A DNA stretch of 64,000 bases from Megalobrama amblycephala. Taxonomy: Eukaryota; Chordata; Actinopteri; Cypriniformes; Xenocyprididae. The first letter of the stretch is position 1. Each line of letters opens with the position of its first letter. The DNA lies in the NCBI RefSeq assembly GCF_018812025.1, contig NC_063049.1:5765013-5829012 (forward strand), written 5' to 3'. The position numbers were made by a program, and so were the translations under genes. Shown in pieces: positions 6,843 through 46,810 of this stretch. The notes beneath the pieces are model-generated. The model was not told where the DNA came from, ran no database searches, and saw only the letters and a program-made list of their open reading frames with translations.

Positions 6843-7621
6843 CCCAACCGGACCTGGTTCCCAGAACTCTCACTCCTCGCGACAGCCCCTCCCTGGCCCA
6901 TTCCTCTGAGGAAGGACCTTCTTTCTCAGAGACGGGGCACTCTTTGGCACCCGCGTCCAGACCTCTGGAAACTCCATGTCTGGTCCCTGGATGGGACGCG
7001 GAGGTTCTAGGTGACTTACCCCCTGAGGTACGTAACACCATCACTTCGGCTCGTGCACTGTCTACGAGACGTGCTTACGCCTCGAAGTGGAACCTGTTTG
7101 TTGAGTGGTGCTCTTCTCGCCGAGAAGACCCCCGAAGATGCTCGATCGGTGTCGTGCTTTCCTTCTTGCAGCAAGGGTTGGAGCGTAGGCTGTCCCCCTC
7201 CACCCTCAAAGTCCATTCTGCTGCTATCTCCGCTTACCACGACCACATAGATGGCAAATCTGTTGGTCAGCACGACCTGGTCGTCAGGTTCCTTAGGGGG
7301 GCGAGACGGTTCAATCCTCCTCGTCCCCCCTCCATACCCTCTTGGGACCTCGCTCTGGTGCTAAGAGCACTTCAGATTGCTCCTTTTAAGCCTTTGCAAT
7401 CGGCAGATTTAAAGATTCTGTCTATGAAGACTTTGCTGCTGTTTGCGTTGGCTTCCATCAAGAGGGTAGGGGACCTGCAGTCATTTTCGGTCGACGAATC
7501 GTGCCTGGAGTTCGGGCCGGGTGACAGCCACGTGGTACTGAGACCCCGGCCTGGCTATGTGCCCAAGGTTCCTACCACTCCCTTCAGGGACCAGGTGGTG
7601 AGCCTGCAAGCGCTGCCCTGA
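6843..7621 (+). pseudogene. DIRS tyrosine recombinase, N-terminal part only
   Basis: Frame 2 stays open from within the RNase H region through 7621, consistent with the overlapping ORF layout of DIRS elements. The recognisable recombinase begins near 7025 (LSTRRAYASKWNLFVEWC, the SAM-like core-binding domain) and reaches the first catalytic arginine in SIKRVGDLQSF near 7460. The HxxR and tyrosine region, needed to cleave and join DNA strands, is missing: at 7621 the coding sequence stops and the element's 3' end begins. The enzyme would integrate a circular DNA copy without target duplication. This copy cannot. Confidence 0.8.
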
Positions 7622-14439: not shown

Positions 14440-15760
14440 CCTTTAACGGATTTGAAAATATAAATTGATAATGTGTTATGTGTATGCCAGGTTAAAGAGA
14501 TGCGTTTTTAGTCTAGATTTAAACTGACAGTGTGTCTGCATCCCGAACAATGCTAGGAAGATTGTTCCAGAGTTTAGGAGCCAAATAGGAGAAGGATCTA
14601 CCACCTGTGGTTGATTTTGATATTCTAGGTATTATCAGCTGGCCTGAATTCTGAGATCGCAATAAACGTGAAGGACTATAATGCATTAAGAGCTCACTTA
14701 GATACTGGGGAGCTAAACCATTTAGTGCTTTGTAAGTAATTTGTAAGCAAGATTTTAAAATTTATACAATGTTTAACAGGAAGCCAATGCAGTGATGACA
14801 GAACTGGGCTAATACTTCCTAGTTCTAGTAAGAACTCTAGCTGCTGCATTTTGTACGAGCTGTAGTTTATTTATCAAGTGAGAGGAACAACCACCCAGTA
14901 GAGCATTACAGTAATCTAGCCTTGAGGTCATGAACGCATGAACTAACTGTTCTGCATTTTTCATTGAGAGCATATGTCGTAGTTTAGATATATTTTTAAG
15001 ATGGAAGAATGCAGTTTTACAGATGCTAGTAACATGGCCTTCAAATGAAAGATTGGTATCAAAGAGCACACCCAGGTTCCTAACTGACGACGAAGACTTA
15101 ATAGATCAGCCATCAAGTGTTAGACAGTATTCTAGATTATTGCGTGAAATCGTTTTCGGTCCAAAAATTAGAATCTCTGTTTTTTCTGAATTTAGTAGTA
15201 GGAAATTACTGGTCATCCAGTTTTTTATATCAGCTATACATTCTGTTAATTTAGCGAATTGGTAAGTTCCGTCAGGGCGCGAAGAAATATAGAGCTGAGT
15301 ATCATCAGCGTAACAATGAAAACTAACGCCATGCTTCCTAATGATATCTCCCAAGGGTAGCATGTACAGAGTGAAAAGCAACGGTCCTAGTACTGAGCCT
15401 TGCGGTACTCCATATTTAACTTGTGACTGATATGACATCTCATCGTTTACTACTTTAAAACTGATGACGGTCAGATAAGTATGATTTGAACCATGCCAAT
15501 GCAATTCCACTAATGCCAACATAGTTTTCGAGTCTGTTTAGAAGAATATTGTGATCAATAGTGTCAAATGCAGCACTAAGATCCAGTAACACTAATAGAG
15601 AGATACAACCACGATCTGATGATAAGAGCAAATCGTTAGTAACTCTGATGAGAGCAGTCTCAGTACTATGGTATGGTCTAAATCCTGACTGAAAATCTTC
15701 ACAGATACTATTTCTTTCTAAAAAAGGAACATAGTTGTGATGAAACTGCCTTTTCTAGTA
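14440..15760 (-). pseudogene. L2 LINE reverse transcriptase and C-terminal domain, frameshifted
   Basis: On the minus strand the RT begins near 15735 with [20 protein letters not shown] and [16 protein letters not shown] (motif A, in a frame interrupted near 15500). It continues with [18 protein letters not shown] (motif B) and [12 protein letters not shown] (catalytic YADD), found in 15106-15522. The next frame (14809-15069) gives FMTSRLDYCNALLGG and LQLVQNAAARVLTRTRKY, characteristic of L2-like LINEs. The end (RSFSYLAPKLWNNLPS region) lies near 14560. At least three frame breaks separate these parts. The enzyme would copy the LINE RNA at a nicked chromosomal target in the nucleus. Confidence 0.8.
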
Positions 15761-16875
15761 TTTTTGACAGAAAAGTGAGATTTTTTTAGCTGTTGTTTTT
15801 AGGGCCCGAGTGTGCTCATTGTACCATGGTGTTGGATTAATTTCTTTAATCTTTTTTAAACGCAAAGGAGCAACTGAGTCTAATGTGCTGGAAAAGAGAG
15901 AGGCAATAGTTTCTGTTGCAACATCGAGGTCTACTAAGCTGTCTGGTATGCTAAGGCGATGAAACTGATCAGGAAGATTATTTATAAAGTGATCTTTAGT
16001 GGTAGAAGTGATGGTTCTACCATATTTATGGCAGGGAGGCAGTTTAGCCGCTTTCACTAAATGTAATTTACACAAGACTAGATAATGATCTGAGATGTCT
16101 TCACTCTGCCGCAGAATTTCAATGGCATCAATATCGATTCCATGTGACAATATTAAATCTAAAGTATGATTACGACAATGAGTGGGTCCTGACACGTGTT
16201 GTCTAACACCAATAGAGTTTAGAATGTCTGTAAATGCCAATCCTAATGAATCTTTTTTATTATCTATGTGGATATTAAAATCACCAACAACAAGGACTTT
16301 ATCTGCAGCTAGTACTAATTCTGATAGAAATTCGGCAATCTCTTTGATAAAGTCTGTATTGTGCCCTGGTGGCCTGTATACAGTAGCCAACACAAATGTC
16401 ATCTTACATAATGTTACGTAAAGCACCATCACTTTGAAGGAATTATATTTGAAAGACTTCTGGCTGATACTGTAAATATTACTATAAATTACAGCAACAC
16501 CTCCCCCTTTGCCTTTCTGACGAGGATTGTGTCGATAATCATAACCTTGAGGACTAGACTCATTTAAAGTAATGTAATGTGTTTTAGCCAGGTTTCTGTC
16601 AAACACAGCACATCTAGATTATTGTCTGTGATAATATCGTTTACAATAAGTGCTTTTGAAGAAAGTGATCTAATATTTAACAACCCAAGCTTTATCATTT
16701 GTTTATCATTATTATCTCTATTTTTTATTTGTTGAACATCAATTAAATTTTTACTATTAAATGGGTTTGGAAGTTTTTTGTTTTTATTAATTCGGGGTAC
16801 AGACACAGTCTCTATGTGATAATATCTAGGTGCGAGAGTTTCTATGTGTTGGGAATTATCTGACTTCTGTAACAT
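15755..16875 (-). pseudogene. L2 LINE apurinic-type endonuclease domain
   Basis: Two overlapping minus-strand frames (16564-16875 and 15755-16606) together give the endonuclease. The motifs are in order: [13 protein letters not shown] (first metal site Asn), LCLTETWL (catalytic Glu), KGGGVAVIYSN, ATVYRPPGHN, LVVGDFNIHID (catalytic Asp-Asn), NHTLDLILSHG, and EDISDHYLV (the Asp-His pair). A frameshift near 16590 separates the first two motifs from the rest. The reading ends near 15755, where the linker to the RT is deleted. The role in an active copy would be to nick target DNA to prime reverse transcription. Confidence 0.82.
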
Positions 16876-25914: not shown

Positions 25915-25975
25915 TTAATTTTTTTATTTGTATAGTGCCTTTCACAATCCAAGTGTTTTCAAAGCAGTTTTGAAG
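25915..25975 (-). repeat. L2-like 3' tail in the receptor gene 3' UTR, with AATAAA
   Basis: ttttatttgtatagtgcctt and the nearby caagtgttttcaaagcag resemble the L2 3' end at 13558-13610. On the minus strand it supplies AATAAA (25923-25928) about 100 bp after the receptor stop codon, so it may act as the poly(A) signal. Confidence 0.5.
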
Positions 25976-26023: not shown

Positions 26024-26116
26024 TCATTTGTTCTCAACACTCAACACCACTGAATCTTCATCTTCATCATCAGCCTTCGTATATTTAATCTGTTGTGTTT
26101 CTGCTGTGTTCTGCTT
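26024..26116 (-). CDS. Receptor gene, last coding exon (acidic tail)
   Basis: Encodes KQNTAETQQIKYTKADDEDE and nine more residues, then TGA. The acceptor is ttgttcag. The tyrosine context IKYTKA is close to, but not, an ITIM, since the +3 residue is Ala. Confidence 0.7.
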   Translation of the reverse strand, partial: KQNTAETQQIKYTKADDEDEDSVVLSVENK

Positions 26117-29100
26117 CTGAACAAGAAGAACAAGTCATGTCATTTAAACAGTGTCCATGTCACATCCTCAAACATTTGGAGAATGTTGTATGAAGTTAAA
26201 GTCTCCTGATGTTGCAGATCTGATGTTGTAAATCTCAAATCAAGACAGCTTTATAAATGATACGAACCTGACAAGACTGGATACAGTTTGTGATCTCTGT
26301 AAAGTCAGAACAGAGAGAGAAAAGACATTAGCGGATCTGTTTGAATCTGATCATTCTCAATTTAAATTAAACTAATCTACTCATTCACGTAAACCTTCAA
26401 GAATTACATATCATTTTAATAACTGCTGTCACTTTTAATAATTTTTAACTGTGACTCCGAGTGGTTTAAGACGCTAAAAAATTATACTATTTCAAGTTAA
26501 AAACTTTTGTAATTAATTTGCTGGCTAAAGCTCAGACATAAAAAGATCCCTGATATACTTCAGCCCAATCAATGACCTGAATAAACCAGAGGCAGCAAAT
26601 ACAAAGATTGAACTACAACACACATGGACATTAACACACATGCCGCAATAATTGTGACATGCACAAATATCTGAATAATATCCATTTCACCCATGTTTCT
26701 GTTAGAGAGCATACACGCTAGGCCACATCTCAGGTCATGTGATGATCTTGAGCTGTTCAGTGTTTGTGAGGTTGTGATATAAGAGTGCCGTTCTCTCTGT
26801 AACCATGTCATTCATCTTCACTATGGCCAAGTACACACTGCAGCTAAATTCAGTGTCAGCTCACATTTTAGTGCCTAATCCTGTTCTGTACACACAAATT
26901 GCAGTAAAATACAGGAGTGAAAATTATTTTACAACTGAATTAACTCCCAAAAAAATGCAGGTAGTGACAAATGCATTTACAGTCATTCTGCACAGTATTT
27001 ACAGAACCAAACTGAATAACTAGTTGTTGATGTATTTTAACATGCATCGCAGATGTGTCTTTATTCTGAATGTATGGTGAATCACAGGGAAAGCAGCACA
27101 AGCAGCGGAAAAGACCAAGCCCACAATAAAGCAAAATATATTAAAATGCCTTACGCTGAAAACAAGATCAAAATTTGGTGACCCACACTTGCTCACTTTA
27201 ATAACTACATAAACTCAACTGCTTCATGAGTCAAAGCCCAAAAACGCCTATAATAAGTGGATATGGCAAAACTGCAAGAGCTCTGTGAAGCAGCCTTTCC
27301 AAGCATAAGCAAAAAATGACGCTTTCGTTGACTATGCTTTATTTATAAAATGCTGAACATAATCAATCTTTTGTCGCTGTAATATTTCAGAATAGCGAAT
27401 AGCAAAGATGTGGGACACCAGAATGTTGCTATGGTTACCATGGGGTCAATCATCGCAGTTTCAGGAGTGAGTGCTGCATTTAAATGTGGTTGTCACTCCT
27501 AAAACTTTATAGTGTGTACATGGCATATGAGCTGCTCACAGTGTGTGAAACTCAGCAGATGCTTGAATTCTATAGGATTTCACTCTTAATGGGGCTCTGG
27601 GGGATTTAAGTGTTGTGAGAAAAAATGACAGATTATTAATAAATTATTAGGAGCCTGACATATGTAGTGTCCAGATAAACATATGATCGTCAATCAAACA
27701 GGAGCAAATTAACACACAAACAGAGACACACAACACAATCTATGTGTTAAATATGTGAATGAATCAGAATTCAGGCACTTCAAAGGATTAGTTCACTTTC
27801 AAATAATTTTTCTGATAATTTACTCACCCCCATGTCATCCAAGATGTCCATGTCCTTCTCTCTTCAGTTGAAAAGAAATTAAGGTTTTTGATGAAAACAT
27901 TCCAGGATTTTTCTCCATATAGTGGACTTCACTGGGATTCAACGGGTTGAAGGTCCAAATGTCAGTTTCAGTGCAGCTTCAAAGAGCTTTAAACGATACC
28001 AGACGATGAGGAATAAGAGTCTTACCTAGAGAAACCATCAATCATTGTTGCTTTGACGCAAATTATGGGAGTAACTTCCGTTAAGCTGTAAACAGTCAGA
28101 ATCACTCTATGAACGCAATAATACTTTTTATTTTTAAACTGGGTACAATGAGATGACATTATTCTTGTCACCCTTCAACCAATGAACAATTGGACATTTA
28201 AAAGTGTAAAAGCATCAACAAGGTATTTTAAACAGGCCATGAAAAAGCATGATTCTTTCTACAGCAATAGCTAATGGGTTAAATATAACTATAGTGATAT
28301 GTACTATGTAATATGCGTTGCCCTAATAAAAATTTTCATAAACTTCAGCATTGCGTGATACTATTTCAAAGTGATTTATGTCATTTTTACAGATAATAAA
28401 TTGTATTTACCTGTGAAAACAAATCTAGAAAGAGATGTGAGGCTTTGAGGAGTAAAACGAGAGATTCTTTGTGCATTCTAGTGAATTATTAATGGGATAT
28501 ATCATAAATTATATCGGGAGAACAGTCCAGAAATGTGCAGCATATGTTGTCCTTATTCATACTATTACAGCAGTATGCAAAAAGACGAAATAATTGGGAG
28601 GATAGAAAGCAGCGGCTGAAAAGAGTTCTTGCCATAGATATTCTTGTCATAACATGTTATGTTACAGTACCAAGCGTTATGTTATTCTCATGATGTCTGA
28701 AAATAAATCATGAAAGAAACTTTGACAGCTCATTCAGTCAAATGGGCAGATAAGCATTATTTGTTGGGAAACCTTATGATTTGAAATGATTTGTTTCAGT
28801 CTTTTTGAATCGAAGTTCTCCAAACCAGAAGTGGAACCCATAATTCGAAACACAGAAGGCTAGTCAGGAATAAGGTCAATACGTTTTAACAATAAATGCT
28901 CATCTTGAACTAGCTCTCTTTTTCTCCACTATTTGAATAAAGTGTATTACTGCCCTCCACAGGTCAAAGTTTGAACTAAATTGTCATATACAATATGCTA
29001 GTGCAAGTATATAACAATTTTTATTTTAGAAAATGAGCAATGGTTTCTCAGGACCCTTTTTTCTTGGCTGGTATCGTTTAAAGCCCTTTGAAGCTGCACT

Positions 29101-32100
29101 GAAACTGTAATTTTGACCTTCAACCGTTTTGAGAAAAATCCTGGAATGTTTTCATCAAAAACCTTCATTTCTTTTCAACTGAAGAAAGAAGGACATGGAC
29201 ATCTTGGATGACATGGGGGTCTAACTAATCCTTTAACTACAGCATGAAACTAAAGGATTGATCATTTATTTGACTAATTGTGTTTGTTCTGAAGAAAGAC
29301 AAATGACTGAGAAAACAGATGAACACAAGCTCATGTGATGTAAATGTGATCTAATGGATTATAATTGGAACAGTTCTGGTTTATACTCACTGGATGCAAA
29401 TAATCCTGAAAGCAGCAGAGATACAGCAAAGAAACATTCAAAAGGAAAGACAATAAATCTCAAATCTCCAACCGTACGATCACCATTCACTGAAAAACAC
29501 AAGAATATTTTCGTGAAATGAAATCAATCTGTATTTGTATAATTACTCCCGATGATTTCTGCATATATATGTAATATTACCATGAACCTTATTATTGAAA
29601 TATTTTTCTCAAAGTGTTGTGTTTTATTACCTGCTTTCAGTATCAGTTCAGTTGTTAGTGCAGTGGAGGTCAGTAAAATAAATCCAACTGATCCAAACAC
29701 ATAAACCGGGACAAAACGATGAAAATCTGTAATGCAAGTTTAAATGTTTAATGTGAAGATTAAACAAACTGCTGAATAATTGCATCAGTTTACCTTTAGG
29801 GACATAAAAATGTTCAATTACTCACTAAAACAATGGTTTAATTTAATTACCATTTAATTAAAAAAATATATTATTAGAGAAAATTATTGAAACCACACAA
29901 AAACTAAACAAAAAATACACATTTAAATTATCTATTAGTCTTTGTTTGCATTTAATCTGTGTTGTTTGATATGATTGATGTCAGCCCTTCGTTCTTCTAC
30001 AGATCATTTTAAAGGGTTAGTTCACCCAAAAATGAAAATAATGTAATTTATTACTCACCCTCATGCTGTTCCACACCCGTAAGACCTTCGTTCATCTTCG
30101 GAAAACAAATTAAGATATTTTTGATGAAATCTGATGGCTCAGTGAGGCCTCCATAGCCAGCAATAACATTTCCTCTCTCAAGATCCATTAATGTACTAAA
30201 AACATATTTAAATCAGTTCATGTGAGCACAGTGGTTCAATATTAATATTATAAAGCCACGAGAATATTTTTGGTGGCCAAAAATACAAAATAACAACTTA
30301 TTTAGTGATGGCCGATTTCAAAACACTGCTTCATGAAGATTCAGATCATAAATGAATCAGTGTATCAAATCATGATTAGGATCACATGTCAAACCCGCCA
30401 AACTGTTGAAATCATGTGACTTGAACTGATTTAAATATGTTTTTAGTACATTAATGGATCTTGAGAGAGGAAATGTCATTGCTCCCTATGCAGGCCTCAC
30501 GGAGCCATCGGATTTCAACTAAAATATCTTAATTTGTGTTCATAAGATTAATGAAGGTCTTACGGGTGTGGAACGAATGAGGATGAGTAATAAATGACAG
30601 AATTTTCATTTTTGGGTGAACTAACCCTTTAAAATATTGTCTATCAATTAAATATGATGTATTCAACTGATAATTACTGTTAATTAATTAGTTCAATCAG
30701 TGTAACTGATTGATTAGCTGTTTCCATCAGGAATGAGAATTAAAACTAAAATTACACAGAGACAAAGGGACAGTTTTTTTCCCCTTAAAAATGTGTCCCT
30801 TCTAAACACAGACCTGCTTAATATTTCAATTCTTGCATGCTTAATATAATTAACTACTGAAGTATTTAATTGTACATGAATTTAAACTGATGTTGAAAAA
30901 TGTAAAAGATAATCAAAGATGATCAATACTGTACTTTGAGAAAAAGAGATCAAATAATATGGATCTGTAAACTTCACAACTGCCCAGTGTATCTGCAGAT
31001 ACACCATCACACAGCCCCATCCGACTTGATCTGTAGATTGATCAGAGCCAAATAAACAATTACTTCTCCAGCAAATATTCACACAAATGTCTAATTTATA
31101 TTCAAGATTTTTTTTTTTCAGGATTGTAGACCAGACATAACAGTGAAAGAAGAGAGAGAGAGAGAGAGAGAGAATGAATGAGACACAGATCAGACTCAAA
31201 CCGGCATGAGCCCAACAGCTGTATATACCCTAATCGTGATCAACACTTTGTGCCACGACTCCAGCATTTAATGACAAGCTAATGAACTAATGAAAACACT
31301 ATGTTAAACTTATATTTAATAGATCAATGACGTGTTATATTTCCAAACATTATTAAAATATGATACCTGTTGTCTTTTCCAGTGTCATGTAAAAACAGAT
31401 AATCACTGCATTAATCACTAATATGAAGATTAACATCACTGTTCTTGTGACTGAAGGTGAACCTGTAAGAGACGAGAGAGTGAGATTTATCTATTAGGAC
31501 CTCATTCAGACCGTCACCACAGTTTTACTTGAATGACGCCATTCTGCTAGCTCTCCTCAAGACCTTATATAAACAAAACCAGATGACCAACCCCAAGTGG
31601 TTGGTTCCCAATAAAACATCCGGGTGAACCGAACACTTTTTTTTGCCTTTCTCGCCTATTCTGAGACCGGTTTTGGAAAATCTGCGTGTATATGATGATA
31701 TTTGGAAATATTTACCCATTCAATCCGTCACTATAGTGCAGGCGTCTGGTGCCCCTGAGGATTGCAGTAATTTTTCTATATTTCAGGTGAGTGGTTGGTA
31801 TTGTTTACATAATACATTTTTCAAGTTAATTCATATTAATATTTGTTTTGTAGTGTTTATATTCTGACTCTTGGGAAGCACATGGATATGGTGAGTAACT
31901 GCTTTGTATGTGTGCAACGGTTCAAATTGCTCACGGTTCGGTTCGTATCACGGTTTTAGGGTCACGGTTTCGGTATGTTTCGGTACGTGATTTGTTGAGG
32001 GAAAATAGGACTATTGTCTAAAAATAAAGAAAATAAGAACAAACAATCAAACTACAAGCAACAGCACAAATAAATACAATAGAGCAAATATTCAAATAAA

Positions 32101-35100
32101 ATAAACAGTACTTTTAAGGATTTCAGGTATCTAACAGTAGTTTAAAGGTACAGAAAATGGATAAAGTAATCAAATATAAAAAACACCGCATATTATCTTC
32201 ACCGTATAAAATAAAGTTGAATCATTATTGAAGTTACAAAAACTATTCAGTCAAGAGCAGTGAGTGATTTCTTTAACATTAAAAACACATGCAGCAGGAA
32301 TACATTTTCTTCCCTTTAAGACATGCACGATCCAGTACATATACTGTTACACATGCACTGTCTTTCTCGACTAATATACGTTCACTTAAGACATAACCAA
32401 CTATGTTTGCTAGGATACTCACCAAGACGGGCATGTTGACATAATTTTTGTATGTTGACATAATATTTGTCCGCTGAAGCGCAAGACTGAAATAAGCGTG
32501 TGCGCGCTTCGGATGAGCCCACACACAAATCTTCTCACAGCGCGTGCGAGTTCTCTTTTGCATCTTGCTCTTAAATGTTTACATCAGCAAGGCTTAAATG
32601 AGATTAATTTAAACACAGATAGCAACGTGTGCTGTTCAGGTTCCCCGAGAGAGGGTGCAAAAAGCTAGCCTTACTGAGTGAGCAACTTGTGATAAAGCCC
32701 AGCCATCATGATCAGTTGTGGATGCATGCTCCCTTAAAAGAAGAAAGGAGCATTCTTCTATTGAAGTTCAGGATCGACCTGGCTGTTCTGATGAAAAAAG
32801 GTCAATTGCTTCAGACCATCAAGCTGAAACCCAGATGCATATTCTAGCAACTTCACATGATTTTGCTGTGAAAATTGATCACTTTGGACCCCAGAAAATA
32901 GGGTTAAGCTCACAACAGCACTCAGGGACAAAAGAGGTAACATTCCTGACACTATTTCTCTCCATGCTCATGACTCTCTTTTTGGTAGTAACGATCAGGA
33001 TATCAAGATCAAGAAGGTGAGTCCAAGTCTTCTGCTAATTATAGGGATCATACACAACCTGATATTCTTACTCGAATTTTTAGTGCTGCAAGAATTTTAG
33101 GTCTGAAAATGCAGGCTGAGACATCAGCTGCACCAGTGGTGCAAGGAGTGTGGGCTGGAGCCTCCCAGTCCCAACCCTCTGTTTTGATTCCTGTTACTGA
33201 AGACTATTCACAAATGCAAAGTAAAACTTGGAATAACCCCAAAGCTGCATCCCAGTTCAATCCTGGTTGTAGACGTTTTGCTAATATTCAATATGCTGCA
33301 GAAACGGGCATGGGAGGTATGCATGGCATCCTTAACACTCTTGGGCCCAGTCCAGGTGACTGATGACCCACAGAGTTCCTGGAAAGAGTGTGAGAAGACT
33401 GATAACTTAGTGTGTCTAACCTACAACTCAGCCACACGCACAGCCCGATCTCTGGCTTCTTTATGGAAACTTTTTAGTTTGGATGATCGGGACATTGGGG
33501 CCTCTGTCATCTGCAATATTTTCTCTTAGACAGGACCAGGACCATGAGAGTTTGACAAAAAGACAAAATAGTAATTATCGGAGGTTTGCCAACAGCAGAA
33601 GTGTCAGACAAGCACCACGACACACACAAATGGCTCACTCTTGTACCTCGATCAGAGATGCACCACAAAGGAAGTGGAACTCCAGGGGCTCAGGCCGGAA
33701 TCTTTTAAAGATGCTGCCATTCAAGATGCTGACCATCTTGGAGGTTATACAGGTCCTTCTCAAAAAATTAGCATATTGTGATAAAGTTCATTATTTTCCA
33801 TAATGTAATGATAAAAATTAAACTTTCATATATTTTAGATTCATTGCACACCAACTGAAATATTTCTGGTCTTTTATTGTTTTAATACTGATGATTTTGG
33901 CATACAGCTCATGAAAACCCAAAATTCCTATCTCAAAAAATTAGCATATCATGAAAAGGTTCTCTAAACGAGCTATTAACCTAATCATCTGAATCAACTA
34001 ATTAACTCTAAACACCTGCAAAAGATTCCTGAGGCTTTTAAAAACTCCCAGCCTGGTTCATTACTCAAAACCGCAATCATGGGTAAGACTGCCGACCAGA
34101 AGGCCATCATTGACACCCTCAAGCGAGAGGGTAAGACACAGAAAGAAATTTCTGAACGAATAGGCTGTTCCCAGAGTGCTGTATCAAGGCACCTCAGTGG
34201 GAAGTCTGTGGGAAGGAAAAAGTGTGGCAAAAAACGCTGCACAACGAGAAGAGGTGACCGGACCCTGAGGAAGATTGTGGAGAAGGACCGATTCCAGACC
34301 TTGGGGGACCTGCGGAAGCAGTGGACTGAGTCTGGAGTAGAAACATCCAGAGCCACCGTGCACAGGCGTGTGCAGGAAATGGGCTACAGGTGCCGCATTC
34401 CCCAGGTCAAGCCACTTTTGAACCAGAAACAGCGGCAGAAGCGCCTGACCTGGGCTACAGAGAAGCAGCACTGGACTGTTGCTCAGTTTTGCATGTCATT
34501 CGGAAATCAAGGTGCCAGAGTCTGGAGGAAGACTGGGGAGAAGGAAATGCCAAAATGCCTGAAGACCAGTGACAAGTACCCACAGTCAGTGATGGTCTGG
34601 GGTGCCATGTCAGCTGCTGGTGTTGGTCCACTGTGTTTTATCAAGGGCAGGGTCAATGCAGCTAGCTATCAGGAGATTTTGGAGCACTTCATGCTTCCAT
34701 CTGCTGAAAAGCTTTATGGAGATGAAGATTTCGTTTTTCAGCACGACCTGGCACCTGCTCACAGTGCCAAAACCACTGGTAAATGGTTTACTGACCATGG
34801 TATTACTGTGCTCAATTGGCCTGCCAACTCTCCTGACCTGAACCCCATAGAGAATCTGTGGGATATTGTGAAGAGAAAGTTGAGAGACGCAAGACCCAAC
34901 ATTCTGGATGAGCTTAAGGCCGCTATCGAAGCATCCTGGGCCTCCATAACACCTCAGCAGTGCCACAGGCTGATTGCCTCCATGCCACGCCGCATTGAAG
35001 CAGTCATTTCTGCAAAAGGATTCCCGACCAAGTATTGAGTGCATAACTGAACATAATTATTTGAAGGTTGACTTTTTTTGTATTAAAAACACTTTTCTTT

Positions 35101-37992
35101 TATTGGTCGGATGAAATATGCTAATTTTTTGAGATTTTGGGTTTTCATGAGCTGTATGCCAAAATCATCAGTATTAAAACAATAAAAGACCAGAAATATT
35201 TCAGTTGGTGTGCAATGAATCTAAAATATATGAAAGTTTAATTTTTATCATTACATTATGGAAAATAATGAACTTTATCACAATATGCAAATTTTTTGAG
35301 AAGGACCTGTAGAACCGATTGAGTGGTTTACAACACTAGACCTCAAAGATGCATACTTTCATGTGCCTATTTATCCAGATCACAAGAAGTTTCTTCGCTC
35401 TGCTTTCCAAGGCCAAGCATACCAATTCAAGGTACTCCCATTTGGCCTTTCACTTTCTCCCCGGGTCTTTACCAGGGTGGTGTCAGCCGTCATTTACCCT
35501 CTTCAGGTTGGGGGAATAAAGATCCTCCCATATCTGGATGACTGGTTGATCTGTGCACAACGTCATCACCAGGTCTTAAGAGATACAGAGACTATTATCA
35601 AACATATACAAGGACTTTCAACTCCACCCCAAATTACACAGGCGAATGAAGTTGAAGGTCACATGGAAATGTATTCAGGCTTTGCGTCCATGGATAAGCA
35701 GAAGCAAATTGAACCAAGGGGTTCCTATACCAGCAAGGAGAATGGTGGTGACAATGGATGCTTCTCTGATAGGTTGGGGGGGCTGTCTGGCAAGGCAGAA
35801 CAGTCAGAGGCTCATGGGCGTTTCCTTGGACCACGGAACACATGGACTTAAGCTGAGAGCAATCTCTGTCTTTGAGACACTTGATTCCATTCCTACGGGA
35901 CAAGCATGTCCTTGTAAAGACCGACAATATGTTGGCAGTCTATTACATCAACCACCAGGTCATTGCGCTGCCTCCAGGAAACCAAGAGACAACCTTCTGT
36001 TTTGGTCCTACCCAAGACTTGCCTTTCTCAGAGCAATCTACATACCCGGAATAGTAAACCGGGCAGCTTATCTCCTCTCCCGAACTGGACCTCTCTCGTG
36101 GGAATGGTGGTGCATCTGATATGGGATCGGTTTGGAAGAGCCCATAACCACATGTTTGCATCAACTGTTTACATCACTTTTAGACTCCGGAAGAAAGGTC
36201 AACAGTTTATGTTGTGGTTATTTCTCATTTTCACAGTATTGTGGAAGGGTTATCAGTTGGTAAACACATGTTGGTGTCTCAATTTCTTAAAAGGGCACAT
36301 CGCCTTTCTCCGGGAATAGGTTGCGATCATCTTCCTGGGACCTCCCCATGGTTCTACAGTCATTGGCTCAGATGGATCTTAAATCACTAACGTGGAAAGC
36401 AATTTTCCTTCTTGCTATCTGTTCAGCTAAAAGAGTGGGTGAATTACATCCATTAATAGTAAGTGAAGACTGTCTGAGATGGAAAGCAGACTATTCAGTC
36501 TCTCTTTGGCCAAAACCCGGTTTTCCTGCCAAAGGTTCTTAATCCTTGCACAATCAATCAGGTTATGGAACTTGCAAAGTTTCAACCTGACCCTGGTCTT
36601 TCAAATGTAGAGTGTGATCTCGCTACCTTGTGTTCGAACACATCGCACATACATTGAGCACAAACAGTCATTACAACTTTCACACACTCAGCTCTTTGTG
36701 TGTTTTGATAAAGCAAAAAGTGTCAGACAACCAGCCTCGAAACAACATTTATCACTTTGGATAGTAGACACTATTGCACAAGCATACTCCAGCCAGAGCT
36801 TACCAGTTCCAATGAACCTGGTGGCTCAGTCTACCAGGAGTCTGGCCACATCCTGTGCGGCTCTGAAGGGGGTGGCACTTATGGACATTTGTGGACATCA
36901 TGGAGTTCACCTTGTACCTTTGCCAAGTATTACAGGATCAATGTGGCAGACCCAATTATGCATGGGTCCACAATTCTGCTCCCGGGCCGCTAAACATTGA
37001 TGTAAAGCAGGGGAGGCTTCCTCGTGAACTTGATGGCATTAGTCATCCAAGGTAAGACCGTGGTGACAGTCTGAGTGAGGTTGAAATAGATCGTAAGTTA
37101 TGTCTATAACTATGGATCAATGAGATCGAATGATGACCGCCACCATCTCTTGTCACTCGCGATGAACTATTTCATCAATAGACAGAAATAGAGCTGATCA
37201 GATCAAAGGATAAAATGAATAAAGACATTTAATGTAAAGATGATCAGAAAACAAACATCTGAACACTGGGCATCATGATTCTACTCACTGAAGAATCAAA
37301 CAAATAATTTCTGCTGTAGATTAAACTCAAACCATTAGAGAGAGTCAGAAATCAATGACTGTTATTGACATGAATGAATCAAGATTATTATTGATCTGAT
37401 CATCAGTGATGAAGTTACTCAAAAAAGTAAATTCACTACAGATTAATAATTACCTTAATAATTAACTTCTCAATACTTTAATTAAAAACTCAACTCTGGT
37501 TTATTACAGAATCTTTCAGTTCTTTAATATTGATCATATGAAAAAATTACAAAAACAACAACATGATTAAAACTCTAAAGCCAAACTCTCTTCTGAAACT
37601 GAAGCTGTGCTGATGTCTGTGTGTGTGTGTTTGTACTTATGGTTCATTATATTCCCTTGCTTGTGTGTAAACTGTAGGTGTAATCTCTAGCAGCCACACC
37701 AAGTACCTTAGCAACTGCATAGCAAAACCCTAGAAACCACCTAGAATAACCTAGCAATCGCATAGCAACATCCTAGTAACCACCCAGAATACCCTAGCAA
37801 CTGCATAGCAACACGTCAGCAACCACACACAATACCCTAGCAACTACATAGCAACACGCTAGCAACCATGCATCAAGTGACGGGACGAAAAATAAACTAT
37901 AATTCTGCTATGAACTATAATGTTATAGTTAAAGTAACTCGACACTGTAACAGATTACAAATGTTGTAAATGTATCCCATGAAAAATATTTG

Positions 37993-38062
<70 letters not shown>

Positions 38063-41000
38063 CAAGTGATGAAGTGACATGACTCAGTAACTGTATCATG
38101 AATCTAATATAAAACTCATTATATCACTTAGATTGACAGTGAATCAGACACTGATCAGATCAGTGTAACATGTTTCTCTCAAAGCTCATGATAAATATAT
38201 AACAGAGATACTAATGTAGTTCTACCGAGATCAGATCAGAATTCATCAAATACTCACAGCTGAGCCTACATCTGCATCTATCAAAGCATCTGTCATCTGT
38301 CATCATCAGTAACACTGGTAACATTACAACAATTATGAATCCTAAAAACAGTAGAGAAATTATTTTGGATATTATGAGAGATAAACAGATTCACAGCAGA
38401 TCACAGTAAATCATTATAAACATCAGTTTCAGTAAATAATGAGTGTTTTGAAGTGACACTGAAGAAGATGAACATGTTCAAATGATGTTGATCTGAACTA
38501 TCAATAAAATATACTCATATCATTATGAATATTAATCACCTGCTCCAGAAGATCCAAACATGTAAAACAGGAGTATGAATTGTAAAGTAGGCAGAATATC
38601 AAACATCATATCAGCCACAAGGTCAAATATTTCAATTGTCTGTCCTCTTTTCTTTTCATTCTGTGTAACTAAACATATAAGAGAAACATTTTCAGTTATT
38701 AAGATATTTGATTCAGTTTTGAGTCATTATAATGACAGTTTATAATGATACAATTTACAACAATAAACAATACAATCAACAACAAAAGCTGAAGAACTGA
38801 GCAAATCATCATGTGACTGAGAGATTCATTTAAAAACATATTTTAATAATAACAGCACTAGTCATTCACTAACCTTCACTAACATTCATGTTTCTAATAA
38901 AAACTATACAGTTTTACGATATTTAATGAAAATATCAATATGCACTATTTCAACTACAACATCAGATCTGAACATTAAAATATGTTTGTATTTCAGTATC
39001 AAAATCTAGTGTGAAATGAATTTAGATTATTACAGTAATGTTATGAAGGCAGTTCAGATCAGTGAATCCGATAAACACTTTCATCTATTTCACTCAGTGA
39101 GTCGCTAGTTTCTGATGGGAATACTGTACATCACAAAAATACTTACAGTAAATGATTTTGCAGAGGCAGCACAGAAACACTATTGAAAACAGGACTGAAA
39201 ACAGGACTATAATCACGACTCTGTCAAAAACAGCAATATTCAGAAGTTTTTGCCAAGCAGTTGTAAAAAGAGCTGGAAGAAAGAAAGAGATAAAAACAAA
39301 TATTATCAAATAGAGGCACAATCAAACTATAAATACAGTTAGGAAAAATTACAAAACATTTAACTGAGGGTTTTTATGTGAATCATCTTGTTTAACTATA
39401 ATTTAAACTGACAGTCTCTCTTATAATCTGAGATTCATTGAGGTTATGCTTTGGTGCTTTAATACACAGTATATACCAGTCTACGTGTATTGAGAGATGG
39501 GTCGTAAATAAACTATAAACCGGAGGCCTGCTGTGTGACATTTAATGTAGATTTTGTTCATAATCATATGTACATCAGGGTGCATTTAATAAGATCATGA
39601 AATAAGATCTGACTAAATCCTGTTATGCACCACAACTGCTCTATGTTTTTGCCATGCTATGATTTATGCAATACTATTTAGATCAACTACATTCAAATTC
39701 TGACAAAAACAATTCTCATCTGTTAATGTACATTTTAATGTGCTCATAATAAAGATTGATTGATATTTGTATTTTATTTACCTGAATAAACAATGATCGA
39801 GAAAACAACATATTCTGCAACATAACTGTAATTCAGAATCCATGTTTTAATTTTGTCTGTAAAACAGAAACAACAATATTTGCAATTATATTGTGATACA
39901 CAACTACACACTGTCACTAAACAACATGTCACTAAAACAACATTAATAAAGCAATAATCCCATGAAGCCATGGATGCTCCTATAAATTCACTTTAAATCA
40001 TGGCTTTGCAGGGCTTATTGCTTTTATAAAACTGTTAGTCCATAAAATATGTATTTATTTCACACGGACGCAGTGGCACAGTAATACTAATGTAATTAAG
40101 GTCACATGTGTTTGTTTGTAGAGTAATTTACAATGGCTTTGAATGCGTCTCAACCAATTAAAATCAACTGTCCATTTTATGATACAAGTTTTATTCAAAT
40201 TTCTTTTGGTAAATCACACAAAGAATAAATGAAGTCTAAACATCTGGTATGAACATATTTCCTCTTCTCTAATAAATGACTCAAACCTGTAAATTCATTA
40301 ATATATGGAGCCGCCCAGAATATCAGGAGAGGTCTCAAAAAATAAAGAGCACAACAAGAGACCGACTCATTCACAGATCCTGAAACACAAACAGATAGTA
40401 ATAGTTTCTGTATTAATAAACAAATATTAGGATGATAAAATGCACTGATAAACAATCAGCAGTGAAACACTCACCTTCAGAAACACCCCAGAAGACAAAA
40501 GCAAGAAACATCATAATATTTGGAAAGAAGACTAGAAACATATGAAGACGAAAGACTGTGTCTAGAGAGAAAAGACAAAATATCTCCAACTGAGTCAAAT
40601 GGGTAAATTATTTTGAAATAAATATTTGATAATTATTAAAACTACTACTATCAGTAATTCGATTTTCTAACTCGATTTCTATTTATAACTTAATAAATAA
40701 AAATCAGAATTGTGTTGGAAACACAAAATTGATATTTAAAATAACTAAACCATTGATTAAGGATAGAAGAGTAGGTCTCTTTCTTATCTCTTGACTTACC
40801 AAGTAGTTTCATCACCAAATTTATCTTGGCTGAAAACATATCATTCCAAGAAAAGTGCCTATAAACTCTACATGTGTATTGTCCCTCATCTTCAGCTTTC
40901 AGATTGTCCAGACGAAGGGAGAAGTTTCCATGTTGAATCTGATCAGTAAAGAAACGAGCTCTATCAAGAAAATCCTCCTGCTGGACCTCTGGTCGACTCT

Positions 41001-41144
41001 CACCATCTTGATACAAAATCAGAGCCTTCCCTTTACTTCTCCAGTCTACCTGCAGACCCTCCACCTCTAAAGGTTCAGAATAAAAGGGCAAAACCACTGA
41101 AGATCCCAGAGGAACAGGTGTGTAATGATGTTTCACAATGAATC
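26024..41144 (-). CDS. Ig V-set receptor with polytopic membrane region (B7/butyrophilin/MOG-like), 12 exons, 5' end missing
   Basis: Twelve minus-strand exons with AG/GT borders join into one open frame of about 450 codons: 40800-41144 (V-set), 40475-40561, 40287-40379, 39782-39856, 39147-39272, 38540-38668, 38258-38341, 31367-31462, 29631-29726, 29391-29489, 26268-26296 and 26024-26116 (stop). Borders are phase 1 except the last, which is phase 0. The V domain has GNFSLRLDNLKAEDEGQY and the F-strand Cys, but its B-strand position is Phe. The nine middle exons each encode a hydrophobic stretch; 39147-39272 and 31367-31462 are the clearest membrane spans. The tail is acidic with one Tyr (IKYTKADDEDED). 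A cell-surface immune or adhesion role is inferred from the V domain. Introns of 6.8 and 3.1 kb are filled with transposons. No signal peptide exon was found; expression and exact exon use are unproven. Confidence 0.7.
26268..26296 (-). CDS. Receptor gene, 29-nt cytoplasmic exon
   Basis: Encodes KITNCIQSCQ when joined to the preceding exon. It enters at phase 1 and leaves at phase 0, which matches both neighbours. Confidence 0.6.
27782..29234. mobile_element. Palindromic MITE, about 1.45 kb
   Basis: The left arm (27782-27996, aaaggattagttcactttca) and right arm (29068-29234, ending gggggtctaactaatccttt) are inverted copies that include gatgacatgggggt and ttttgatgaaaacattccag. The right arm lacks about 30 bp present on the left. 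The roughly 1.07 kb between them has no coding frame. Confidence 0.8.
29391..29489 (-). CDS. Receptor gene, hydrophobic exon 9
   Basis: 99 nt, phase 1 on both sides. Encodes a segment with DLRFIVFPFECFFAVSLLLS, a likely membrane span. Confidence 0.7.
29631..29726 (-). CDS. Receptor gene, hydrophobic exon 8
   Basis: 96 nt, phase 1 on both sides. Encodes FVPVYVFGSVGFILLTSTAL. Confidence 0.7.
30011..30630. mobile_element. Palindromic MITE, complete copy
   Basis: Begins aaagggttagttcacccaaa and ends tttgggtgaactaaccctt. The inverted ends are over 100 bp including subterminal parts (actcaccctcat, cacacccgtaagaccttcgt). It shares its interior with the truncated copy at 12988-13420. It lies in the intron between hydrophobic exons 7 and 8. 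Confidence 0.85.
31150..31173. repeat. (AG)n microsatellite
   Basis: Short uninterrupted AG run. Confidence 0.85.
31367..31462 (-). CDS. Receptor gene, hydrophobic exon 7
   Basis: 96 nt, phase 1 on both sides. Encodes TVMLIFILVINAVIICFYM, a strong membrane span. Confidence 0.72.
31463..32599. other. Receptor intron, unassigned, with an hAT-like end
   Basis: 31908-31990 (cggttcggttcgtatcacgg, tttcggtatgtttcggtacg) resembles the end of a fish hAT element. A plus frame at 31643-31790 ends at a possible donor, but no family was recognised. Confidence 0.4.
32720..33748 (+). pseudogene. Gag-like remnant of the second DIRS family
   Basis: Broken frames at 32718-33020, 33109-33363 and 33278-33529 contain SRSRR, NNPKAASQFNPGCRRFANI and SATRTARSLASLWKL. 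The last resembles a segment of vertebrate DIRS Gag that reads ATxxARSLAxL. The position directly before the RT supports this. The frames overlap and shift, so no intact protein remains. Confidence 0.5.
33750..35309 (+). mobile_element. Tc1 element with about 205-bp inverted repeats, apparently young
   Basis: Starts caggtccttctcaaaaaatt and ends with its mirror aggacctg. TA target duplications lie at 33748-33749 and 35310-35311. The inverted repeats (33750-33957 and about 35100-35309) differ by about one substitution and a small indel. Length 1560 bp. The element interrupts the DIRS copy. Confidence 0.92.
34079..35038 (+). CDS. Tc1-type transposase, open frame but lacking the first catalytic Asp region
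   Basis: Open frame of 319 residues, start MGKTADQKAIIDTLKREGKT. The N-terminal half (about residues 1-115) holds two helix-turn-helix motifs (EISERIGCSQSAVSRHLSG; ETSRATVHRRVQEMGY) with a basic linker, for binding the inverted repeats. The catalytic half shows VFQHDLAPAHSA (Asp223) and DLNPIENLWDIVKR (Glu258), spaced 34 residues apart as in the DD34E family. The first Asp should lie in a WSKVLFSDESK-like segment just after residue 136, but here VAQ is followed directly by FCMSFGNQG. The deletion is in frame, and the protein is about 20 residues shorter than usual. It would bind DNA but should not cut it. Confidence 0.9.
   Translation: MGKTADQKAIIDTLKREGKTQKEISERIGCSQSAVSRHLSGKSVGRKKCGKKRCTTRRGDRTLRKIVEKDRFQTLGDLRKQWTESGVETSRATVHRRVQEMGYRCRIPQVKPLLNQKQRQKRLTWATEKQHWTVAQFCMSFGNQGARVWRKTGEKEMPKCLKTSDKYPQSVMVWGAMSAAGVGPLCFIKGRVNAASYQEILEHFMLPSAEKLYGDEDFVFQHDLAPAHSAKTTGKWFTDHGITVLNWPANSPDLNPIENLWDIVKRKLRDARPNILDELKAAIEASWASITPQQCHRLIASMPRRIEAVISAKGFPTKY
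35312..37000 (+). pseudogene. DIRS RT, RNase H and tyrosine recombinase of the second family, frameshifted
   Basis: RT begins right after the Tc1 element: WFTTLDLKDAYFHVPI (motif A), LPFGLSLSPRVFTRVV (motif B) and LPYLDDWLICA (motif C, YLDD catalytic). RNase H starts near 35745 (VVTMDASLIGWGG) and shifts frame near 35870 (DKHVLVKTDNMLAVYYINHQ). The recombinase is near 36380-37000: AICSAKRVGELHP (first Arg), AQSTRSLATSCAALKG (HxxR box with His replaced by Gln), and HTFAKYYRI-like sequence with the catalytic Tyr in a further frame. Several shifts and a stop at 36540 make it inactive. The function in an active copy would be reverse transcription and recombinase-mediated integration. Confidence 0.78.
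37121..37684. other. Receptor intron, unassigned
   Basis: AT-rich, with no exon-like border pair found. Confidence 0.4.
37685..37872. repeat. Minisatellite, about 42-bp units
   Basis: Repeats of ctagcaaccaccagaatac then cctagcaactgcatagcaac-like units, about four to five imperfect copies. A similar repeat is common in cyprinid introns (from memory). Confidence 0.8.
37997..38058. repeat. Compound (TA)n(GT)n microsatellite
   Basis: Uninterrupted TA run passing into a GT run. Confidence 0.95.
38258..38341 (-). CDS. Receptor gene, hydrophobic exon 6
   Basis: 84 nt, phase 1 on both sides. Encodes FIIVVMLPVLLMM followed by a cysteine- and arginine-rich TDDRCFDRCRCRLS. Confidence 0.68.
38540..38668 (-). 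CDS. Receptor gene, hydrophobic exon 5
   Basis: 129 nt, phase 1 on both sides. A charged start (TQNEKKRGQ) precedes MMFDILPTLQFILLFYMFGS. Confidence 0.7.
39147..39272 (-). CDS. Receptor gene, hydrophobic exon 4
   Basis: 126 nt, phase 1 on both sides. Encodes VVIIVLFSVLFSIVFLCCLC, the strongest membrane span in the gene. Confidence 0.75.
39782..39856 (-). CDS. Receptor gene, hydrophobic exon 3
   Basis: 75 nt, phase 1 on both sides. Encodes YVAEYVVFSIIVYS, moderately hydrophobic. Confidence 0.65.
40287..40379 (-). CDS. Receptor gene, hydrophobic exon 2
   Basis: 93 nt, phase 1 on both sides. Encodes SCCALYFLRPLLIFWAAPYI. Confidence 0.65.
40475..40561 (-). CDS. Receptor gene, hydrophobic exon 1
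   Basis: 87 nt, phase 1 on both sides, directly after the V-set exon. Encodes LHMFLVFFPNIMMFLAFVFW, a likely membrane span. Confidence 0.7.
40800..41144 (-). CDS. Receptor gene, Ig V-set exon lacking the B-strand cysteine
   Basis: 345 nt, acceptor ttttttcag, donor ggtaagt. The V-set signature is clear: VDWRSKGKALILYQDGESRP (C strand Trp and beyond), RARFFTDQIQHGNFSLRLDN, and DEGQYTCRVY with the F-strand Cys. The B-strand motif reads SSVVLPFYSE, with Phe (codon TTT) where VVLPC is expected. The related exon at 46475-46810 keeps that Cys. Confidence 0.85.
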
Positions 41145-43956: not shown

Positions 43957-46160
43957 TGGTGTAACAGGTATACAAAGCATACTGCTAAATATTGTTATAA
44001 TTCACACAAAATTGTTCTTTTATACATTTTATATGGTTAGCTGATCTAAATGAGTGCTTCCCCTTTAGGTGTTGCATGGTGACAGTATGACCTAATTTCC
44101 CATCCTGTCCCCTCCTCTTCCCTTTTGAAATGTGATTCAATGGGGGAGGTAGGTTTCTTTTGTCATCCTGCTAATCCTTACTTTAATTATTGCTTTTATA
44201 TCTGTGTATAGTGTTATTTTATCTATCCGTGAGATTGTTTTCGTTATTTTGCATTCTTTGAAGTATATTTCTGTCTTTTATGTGAAACGAGCACATGGTG
44301 ATGGAGGTGCATCATGTTTGTTTTGAGTGTTATAAGGGCCACTTACTCTGAGGCTGTTTATTTGTCTCTATGTTACCCAGATTCGAGTAAAAAGATCCAG
44401 TGAATCTGCTGCCCCATGTCTGTCTCCACAATCTCACACAAAGTAACACAACGCAGACCAAGTTTTAATACCTGGTGTCACTGGCCATGCATCATGCTGG
44501 GCATAACCGAGCCGCACAGGTTACATTGGCATCTAAAGCAGGACATCAGCATCTAAAGGCCTGTAGCCTATAAACCAAATCCTAATCCTAAAAAAAAATT
44601 CTCAATATAATACACCTAACAGCCAGACAAAAAAGTCACAGTAATTTAGATGTCGTTGTGGCCTTTATTCATATAAAACAATAGTGAAAAGCAATGAGAC
44701 GGGATCGAGACCATAGGTTGTGTTTACACTTGGCATTAACATGCGACCTGTATCTGGATGTTGTCCACATTGAAAAGACAAGTGTAAACACGTTTGTGAT
44801 CGGAATGTTATCCGATCAATATGCCAACATGACCATGTGACAGGACAATTTATTTTTATTTATTTTTTTCATATAAAATAATAGCATTTCTTTAGAAATT
44901 TAAATTATAATAATTTTGTAGTTTGACAATGAACACTGCAAAACAGCTAAACAGCACTGGTCAAAATAATACAGGCACACAGATAAAAAAAAATATTCAA
45001 AAAAAGAAATGAACAAAAACACTCCCCTCCCTCCACTCACAGCTCTCACAGAACACAAGACAAATAGATAAGCCAGTACAAATGCTGAAACATTTCTTGA
45101 AATAATATTTTATAAATGTTCTGCTTTTTCCTCTCAGTTTTTATTCGCTTCCATGGCTTCTGAACAGATATTCATAAAAGTGATTTATCCCAATTGTATT
45201 ATTAACTGTATAGAAATCTTCAGTGACATATTTCTGATTTCTGAATTTTCTCTATATATTGTTGATGGTGACTAGTAAATACATTACGTTTCATCATGCT
45301 AGCATGTGTATAAAGTATTTAAACAATGTTTGTTACTACTAACGCTGGGTTAAGTTGTGCCTCACGCTCCCCTACTAAAGGCGTGCAGTCTTTACTAATG
45401 AGCCAATGACTTGAGTCAGGTGTGTGCAGATGTGCAGTATACTGGACTGATTTGAAAAACATTACTGGTGTGCATCTAGAGACAAAACAATGGCACTGGC
45501 TTATTTTAGGATATGTTAGTGCAAGTTACTTTCAGTTAAAACAGCTCGAACATGTGACTGAACTGCTTGTTTTCAAAAATATGATTTTATATATTACTAG
45601 GTTACATCAAGGGTCAAATAAAATAGAAATGGCACATTAAAGTTAAAAGTTACAGTTGCACGATAAAACCTTTTTTTGTGTGTGTGTTTACGTTCATTGT
45701 ACAGGTCTGATATAAAGAATGTTTTTGCTCAGGTGGCCAAAATCTGTGCTCAACAGAGTTTTGCTCAGCGAGAAAAAAAAAATTAGAGGGAACATTGGCT
45801 CTCAGTGGTCAAAAGTATAAAAATTCCTTCCACAAATTTGGATTTTTTACATTATCTTCTAATAGCTTTTATATACATTTAATGCATTGACTTCTGCTGT
45901 TTTATGTTGTAGAAAAATTACTTTACATACACCAGTGTCTACAAACCCAGCACCACAAACCAATAATACTGATAAAGCACATAAATACATGATCAGATGT
46001 AGTTGGTGCTTTTCAACATGAACACCATGTGTATAATTAATAATATATGACCAGTTGAGGCAATTATATTTACAGTATCACTTATCTGGAAATACTATAA
46101 CTATACTGATTAATTAAATTCATTTTGATCAGGGCTACAACAGCAGCAGAGTTTACTTAC
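43957..46160. other. Unassigned region between two V-set exons
   Basis: AT-rich. I searched the minus strand for a signal peptide exon or further membrane exons and found none with good borders. Confidence 0.4.
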
Positions 46161-46198
46161 CCGACTTTGGTTTGGTTGATTGCACACCATCCTGTTTC
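46161..46198 (-). CDS. Candidate 38-nt exon (NRMVCNQPNQSR)
   Basis: Acceptor tagtttacag and donor gtaagt bracket 38 nt. It would enter at phase 1 and leave at phase 0, like the 29-nt exon at 26268. It cannot sit between the two V-set exons without breaking frame, so it may be a tail exon of an alternative form, or not an exon. Confidence 0.3.
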
Positions 46199-46474
46199 CT
46201 GTAAACTATAAATATATACAAATGTATTCTGATTTTGTATTATTTCCTGTTTGGAAATAATTGCAAATATTGAAACTTTTAATATAAGGTAATCAGTTGT
46301 GAATAATTTGACAACACTGTAATGTATTAATTATCTTGAGTTGTCCTAAATTAATAATACTGGTTGTAATGCAACATTAAAATTTGGATTGATTAACTAT
46401 TAAGATTGGTTGGATTAAATTGCAGTTAAATGTATAAAAATGAGTCAAGTTTGATTTTAGTTTTGTTTACTCAC

Positions 46475-46810
46475 CCAAATGTGTTGTGTTTGAAAACACA
46501 CAAGTCCTCTTGCTATAAACTCTACATGTGTATTGTCCCTCATCTTCAGCTCTCAGATTGTCCAGACGGAGGGAGAAGTTTCCATGTTTAATGGGATCAG
46601 TGAAGAAATGAGCTCTACCTTTAAAATATTTGTCCTGTTTCTCTGCTCGACTCTTACCATCTTGATACAGATGAACCAGAGTGTTTGAGATTCTTCTTGT
46701 TCTTCTCCATTCCACCTTCAGACCTTTAGTTAGTAATTTTTGATGAACATGACAGGGCAAAACCACTGAATCTTCCAAATTATCTTCACAAGAATTTTGC
46801 ACAATCAAAC
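46475..46810 (-). CDS. Ig V-set exon with canonical cysteines (second V domain)
   Basis: 336 nt, acceptor ccttttcag, donor ggtgagt, phase 1 on both sides. The V-set hallmarks are complete: EDSVVLPCHVHQ with the B-strand Cys, LKVEWRRTRR with the C-strand Trp, YQDGKSRAEKQDKYFKGR, and LRAEDEGQYTCRVYS with the F-strand Cys. It is similar to the exon at 40800-41144 over its whole length and lies 5.3 kb upstream in the same orientation. Phase allows a direct join to that exon, giving a two-V-domain receptor, but the two could also belong to neighbouring duplicated genes. Likely a ligand-binding extracellular domain. Confidence 0.85.

Follow-up and report, generated by a model that had tools for sequence, protein, structure and literature searches.

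Polytopic immunoglobulin (Ig)-domain immune proteins are rare, and a V-set domain combined with a many-pass membrane region is seldom seen among known immune receptors. A minus-strand gene in a 64-kb stretch of the Megalobrama amblycephala genome (C6:5765013-5829012, the whole of which is referred to here as the window) appears to hold both, which raises the question of whether a V-set exon and a series of hydrophobic exons form one protein and, if so, what kind of protein it might be. The reading we prefer, with a probability of roughly 55%, is that the gene belongs to a multi-copy family whose members carry one or more B7/butyrophilin-type V domains outside the cell on a polytopic membrane platform with a short tail, in the manner of CD47 and the SKINT proteins.

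Gene structure

Twelve minus-strand exons between 41144 and 26024 join into a single open frame of 449 codons plus a stop (Table 1). All 11 introns are of the GT...AG type, and each of the two alternative frames of the join contains 37 stops. Intron phase is 1 throughout, with the exception of the last intron. From 5' to 3', a V-set domain (V1; Pfam PF07686, 34.3 bits against a cut-off of 26, E 3e-8) is followed by nine hydrophobic exons, and the coding region closes with an exon of 29 nt and an acidic last exon, which give a C-terminal tail of about 40 residues. Some 100 nt past the stop codon lie AATAAA/ATTAAA signals, at 25928 and 25919. The intron between V1 and exon 2 measures 238 nt, and intron 7 extends over 6.8 kb and carries transposable elements. 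The initial annotation had described twelve minus-strand exons with canonical borders and about 450 codons, encoding one V-set domain, nine hydrophobic exons and a short acidic tail; every coordinate held, and the Pfam match and the exon join agree with the layout. This gene structure is very probably correct. Exon 1 as modelled is not the start of the protein, as it contains neither a Met nor a signal peptide.

Table 1. Exons of the gene and related features upstream of it, with positions in the window
Feature	Position	Strand	Evidence
Exon 1: V-set domain (V1), B-strand Cys replaced by Phe, F-strand Cys retained	40800..41144	-	Pfam; V exon in five other copies
Exon 2: hydrophobic segment 1	40475..40561	-	Exon join, hydrophobic-exon scan, copies
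Exon 3: hydrophobic, CCALYxLRPL motif, perhaps re-entrant rather than spanning	40287..40379	-	Scan, copies, topology scoring
Exon 4: start of hydrophobic segment 3, conserved SYxxxY	39782..39856	-	Copies; missed by scan
Exon 5: hydrophobic segment 4, then basic loop	39147..39272	-	Scan, copies
Exon 6: hydrophobic segment 5	38540..38668	-	Scan, copies
Exon 7: hydrophobic segment 6, then Cys/Arg-rich loop	38258..38341	-	Scan, copies
Exon 8: hydrophobic segment 7, 3' of the 6.8-kb intron	31367..31462	-	Scan, copies
Exon 9: hydrophobic segment 8	29631..29726	-	Scan, copies
Exon 10: hydrophobic segment 9	29391..29489	-	Scan, copies
Exon 11: 29 nt, ITNCIQSCQ	26268..26296	-	Exon of equal length with ITNCLQSCQ in L049
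Exon 12: acidic tail and stop	26024..26116	-	Diverged in-frame counterpart in L049; poly(A)-type signals
V2: second V-set exon, both canonical Cys	46470..46808	-	Pfam; order shared with L049
Exon u: one transmembrane segment	47835..47936	-	Scan; also in L049 and C71
Weak signal-peptide candidate (MYLCALSVLLVCGAGFVDT), between V2 and V1; not established	45933..45990	-	

The possibility that AT-rich sequence had produced the hydrophobic frames by chance was rejected on the basis of a resampling control and of the genomic copies described below. A scan of both strands of the window, with no coordinates supplied, looked for exons of 66-135 nt that have splice-like borders, are open in frame and encode a hydrophobic 19-mer; the splice weights were approximate, and the thresholds were relaxed after stricter runs that returned 3 and 6 minus-strand exons and none on the plus strand. 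For phase 1-1 exons the scan returned nine, all of them on the minus strand; phases 0 and 2 gave none. Eight of these nine are exons 2, 3 and 5-10 of the gene, exon 4 being sub-threshold, and the ninth is a separate exon at 47936-47835, termed exon u. Across 100 first-order Markov resamplings, the mean was 0.09 and 0.14 exons per strand, with a maximum of 2. No convincing internal repeats were found among the hydrophobic exons (45 pairs of exons 2-10 and u, best ten considered; 21 block pairs). Exon u gave the top two scores, 4.9 standard deviations (SD) with exon 5 and 4.1 SD with exon 8, and both are put down to similar composition and the number of pairs tested; within exons 2-10 no pair exceeded 2.4 SD, and no block pair exceeded 1.9 SD.

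Copies and selection

A search of the genome containing the window (1.11 Gb, 243 contigs) with the 335 residues of the membrane part and tail together yielded 172 first-look candidates, of which 120 were scored and 110 matched. With gaps below 16 kb, these matches cluster into 36 places, the window's own included, 24 of which have at least three exons; it should be noted that exon counts per place may be inflated by cross-intron matches and that single-exon matches near E 0.01 may be due to chance. Nearly half of the places (17) lie on C1 (51.9-69.4 Mb), with the rest on C3, C6, C14, C15, C16, C71 and C102. All nine hydrophobic exons are present at five loci, namely the window, L049 (C1:65.49M), L050 (C3:4.94M), L051 (C71) and L052 (C1:65.42M), and exon borders are conserved at most of them; in L050 the end of exon 6 is shifted by one base, and in L051 no acceptor for exon 6 is apparent where it would be expected.

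In L049, the V exon is followed by exons 2-10 and by exon 11, again 29 nt long; exon 12 has an in-frame equivalent there, complete with acceptor and stop codon. The tail of L049 is 39% identical to that of the window over 28 residues (E 0.07) and is more mixed in charge. The aligned pieces of the two loci are 78-90% identical, and because the alignment includes introns, the unit has been copied as a block. Several residues are shared widely within the family. For example, the CCALYxLRPL motif of exon 3 and its Arg occur in all nine copies compared, the Glu of exon 4 occurs in eight of the nine (Gln in L055), and the Asp-Arg of exon 5 is found in four aligned members and is missing from L042.

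The ten pairwise ratios of nonsynonymous to silent divergence (dN/dS) for the membrane exons of the five complete loci range from 0.41 to 0.85, and comparison of the window with the C71 copy gives 0.46 (p 4e-6). These values argue that the membrane part is protein-coding and has been selected over longer times, the signal being weak among younger copies.

Joining of the V domain to the membrane exons

Eight loci contain exon 2 along with at least 1.3 kb of upstream sequence (L036, with 46 bases upstream, was left out), and in six of them the first exon found on going upstream from exon 2 is a V-set exon: the window, L049, L050, L052, L055 (C15:5.29M) and L028 (C1:65.39M). The V exon of L050 has an acceptor, the V exon of L028 lies about 100 nt from exon 2, and L055 has only V and exons 2-4 in view. 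In L052, V and exon 2 are separated by a broken u-like piece in which no exon is intact.

Divergence between the window and L049 points in the same direction. Silent divergence is matched (dS 0.147 for V and 0.150 for the membrane exons), and nonsynonymous divergence is higher in V (dN 0.158 vs 0.087, p 0.009). Equal dS with a higher dN in V is the pattern to be anticipated if a single gene had a rapidly changing V domain and a constrained membrane domain, and on this sequence evidence we consider it very probable that the V and membrane exons lie in one transcript. The central proposal of the initial annotation, a polytopic Ig-domain protein, is well supported: V and hydrophobic exons recur together in the copies, and comparison with C71 shows purifying selection on the membrane exons.

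Membrane topology

The number of times that the protein crosses the membrane was assessed with a home-made scorer that combines an insertion scale with the positive-inside rule, run under six settings on the window protein with its tail. With V placed outside, the best counts were 5, 5, 5, 8, 8 and 7 spans. The initial annotation had regarded one or two predicted spans as incompatible with its proposal, and best counts of five to eight, by this scorer, agree with a polytopic protein. A model of nine spans with V outside, in contrast, scored below each of the models of five to eight spans in all six settings. As yardsticks, CD47 gave 5 spans in all six settings and rhodopsin, with the N terminus outside, gave 4, 4, 5, 6, 6 and 7, so that only the last settings are near calibrated. 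For four family members without the tail, eight spans outscored all other V-outside models in each of the eight runs, and exon 3 is the segment omitted in the models listed. A nine-span model with V inside was about level with the best V-outside model in the window and L052, ahead of it in L049 and behind it in L051; such a result would fit one further transmembrane (TM) segment, that of exon u, placed first. Nine hydrophobic exons need not equal nine spans, and the nine-segment membrane region with V outside that had been proposed, scoring below five to eight spans in the window protein and disfavoured against eight in the four members, is doubtful and is not taken as established here.

Comparison with known proteins

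The V1 domain resembles known immune proteins. Among the best 60 of its 222 matches to the solved structures in PDB are MXRA8, CD276, PD-L1, MOG, VTCN1, BTNL8 and BTN2A1, and by its sequence V1 falls within the B7/butyrophilin-like V lineage, which is the likeness that it has to butyrophilins, B7 proteins, MOG and CD276. Butyrophilins are single-span proteins; the gene in the window differs from them in its many hydrophobic exons and in a tail of about 40 residues that has no B30.2 match in Pfam. In PMC4046983, butyrophilins are described as having two Ig-like domains and a B30.2 domain.

The membrane part of four members has no match in Pfam or in NCBIfam, the latter being a library of prokaryote families, and no PDB chain falls under E 1.8 (profile) or 0.27 (single sequence). 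PHROGs gave no match. Likewise, in viral and prokaryote contig collections, which are not fish-based, none of the 34 and 60 pattern matches was confirmed for the whole protein and none of the 93 and 61 for the V alignment. Among the titles and abstract openings listed by literature searches, no description of a fish V-set protein with many spans was found.

CD47, a ligand of SIRP-alpha, is the nearest known protein in architecture. PMC8410850 describes an IgV domain held by the loops of a five-TM bundle with a small, alternatively spliced tail, and terms CD47 the sole five-TM receptor of the immune system. The likeness lies in one V domain at the N terminus, a polytopic membrane domain after it and a short tail at the C terminus (PMC8410850 and PMC5413580). 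In contrast to the five spans of CD47, there are nine hydrophobic exons here; in addition, V1 of the window is without the first canonical Cys, and the family has many copies. Against CD47 profiles, V1 had no CD47 family match, and V2 reached 18.2 bits with V-set_CD47, below the cut-off of 21.

The SKINT proteins offer a second comparison. An IgC domain and three TM domains are described for SKINT1 (PMC4382165). As with the gene studied here, the SKINT genes combine a butyrophilin-type V domain, more than one TM region and a short tail in a fast-evolving gene cluster (PMC4046983 and PMC4271611). They differ in that no IgC exon was found between V1 and exon 2 here and that there are nine hydrophobic exons. 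Because its membrane part has no match in Pfam, NCBIfam or PDB, the gene cannot be filed with either CD47 or SKINT.

V domains, exon u and the 5' end

The canonical pair of B- and F-strand Cys is incomplete in V1 of the window, where Phe occupies the B-strand position. Of the six V exons adjoining exon 2, three have lost this Cys (Phe in the window, Ser in L049, Tyr in L055) and three have kept it (L050, L052 and L028).

Upstream exons occur in three orders: V-V3-u-exon 2 on C71, V-V3-u-V2-V1-exon 2 in the window and its flank, and u-V2-Vx-V1-exon 2 in L049. Because the order u-V2-(Vx)-V1-exon 2 is common to the window and L049, the number of V domains in the ectodomain may be anywhere from one to three, or the locus may consist of two adjacent genes. 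V2 may belong to the same protein as an additional domain, and exon u either anchors the product of an upstream gene or is an alternative or earlier exon of the 12-exon gene. The signal-peptide candidate at 45990-45933 was rejected as weak, given that a match of this type arises in 16.5% of shuffles and that its donor is not conserved in L049.

Between V1 and V2, dN/dS is 1.1 overall. Over a 24-codon stretch, V1 (40801-41142) and V2 (46470-46808) differ by just one silent and two replacement changes, the remainder being strongly different, and this stretch may reflect gene conversion. The segment at 45796-46213 aligns to L049 just downstream of the third V exon, Vx, which is not an exon in the window. 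The V-set array extends upstream on the minus strand, with a V + V3 type exon pair at 1478-775 of L009 (C6:5829013-5839012) and a further pair of this type at about 9998-9442 of L009, running over into L010. Genome-wide, V-set exons look hugely expanded (4477 first-look candidates, with matches for 150 of the 150 scored), and dense clusters lie on C22, C10, C15, C17, C1 and C2.

Favoured reading and alternatives

In the favoured reading, one or more V-set domains would be exposed outside the cell as a changeable recognition surface, the membrane domain would serve as a fixed platform that orients or clusters the V domain, and a signal might be passed through partners, by analogy with CD47 and SKINT. 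Eight crossings are probable in such a protein, with exon 3 embedded without crossing, and ten would result if exon u were used. The faster protein change in V suggests recognition of a variable partner, perhaps immune cells or a pathogen. This displayed-ligand mechanism is tentative, and we would place it slightly short of even odds. Such a family, if true, would add another example of a membrane bundle that displays an Ig domain, and what such platforms contribute to recognition could then be tested directly. There is a fair chance that the family is undescribed; the fuller proposal of an undescribed polytopic Ig receptor family with dozens of loci, a membrane fold unlike those of known families, V domains repeatedly without the disulphide (three of six) and possibly splice-switched anchors is conceivable, at odds of perhaps one against two.

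Several results weigh against the favoured reading. Exon u, and not V, precedes exon 2 in the C71 copy, where V3 and V lie 3.3-4.0 kb upstream, and in L042 the 1,359 bases upstream of exon 2 contain no V. Checks of the window and L049 found no convincing signal peptide, and the loss of the canonical Cys from V1 could mean decay. For the membrane exons of the window and its closer copies, constraint is weak, with dN/dS at 0.58 (p 0.026) for L049 and 0.71 (p 0.15) for L052. Membrane homology to CD47 was rejected, with none in Pfam, none significant in PDB and an hhalign probability of 0.2% against the CD47 membrane part, and comparison with the Skint1 membrane part likewise revealed none.

These observations present several other potential scenarios. 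One locus might use alternative anchors, its V exons being spliced either to exon u, giving a single-pass protein, or to exons 2-10, giving a polytopic one. Phase-1 introns would preserve the frame for either choice, and the orders of u, V and exon 2 on C71, in the window and its flank and in L049 would suit such a scheme, as would the u-like piece in L052; however, tandem neighbouring genes would give the same order, and use of u together with V2 and V1 would leave both V domains cytosolic, so that we regard this scenario as unlikely. Two neighbouring genes, one with the V exons and the other a polytopic gene with its own start, would also account for the few Met codons within exon 2, and the phase-1 borders of V and exon 2 are no proof of joining; yet the gap between V and exon 2 is just 238 nt here and about 100 nt in L028, V is next upstream in six of eight loci, and silent divergence is matched, all of which makes separate genes very improbable.

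The polytopic part could instead be channel-, transporter- or scramblase-like, with V as an accessory regulatory or adhesion module, as might be suggested by the charged residues of exon 3 (Arg, 9/9), exon 4 (Glu, 8/9) and exon 5 (Asp-Arg in the four aligned members). This scenario is rather improbable given that no channel or transporter family is matched in Pfam, NCBIfam or PDB and that many copies with rapid V evolution look more like recognition. It is no more probable that the window copy is itself decaying or dead, with intact family members at other loci. The lost B-strand Cys, the 6.8-kb intron with its transposable elements, the lack of a clear signal exon and the one-base shift at the end of exon 6 in another copy, L050, are consistent with decay, but the frame and every splice border in the window are intact. 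Moreover, the Cys loss may be tolerated, because L049 (Ser) and L055 (Tyr) are also changed at this position and have frames that are open where visible.

Other elements in the window

Intron 7 contains, on the strand opposite to the gene, a Tc1/mariner-type transposon at 33743-35316, with 183-nt terminal inverted repeats that are 99% complementary and a 352-residue open frame with HTH_Tnp_Tc3_2 and DDE_3 domains; the element is probably young. A reverse-transcriptase fragment (RVT_1) lies in the same intron at 35300-35848, and an inverted repeat pair at 30068-30574, with 156-nt arms that are 91% complementary, lies in an intron of the gene as well.

Elsewhere in the window, a transposase-like remnant with DUF4371 at 3584-4423 is presumably of the hAT type. 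Pieces of long interspersed nuclear elements (LINEs), with endonuclease and reverse-transcriptase frames, occur on the minus strand at 15109-16618, and a LINE UnaL2 3' element occurs at 2169-2222. A 619-residue open frame at 5762-7621 has no Pfam match and is retroelement-like by eye. Finally, a 91-residue frame at 50008-50280 matches a DEAD/DEAH helicase and is RecQ-like by eye.

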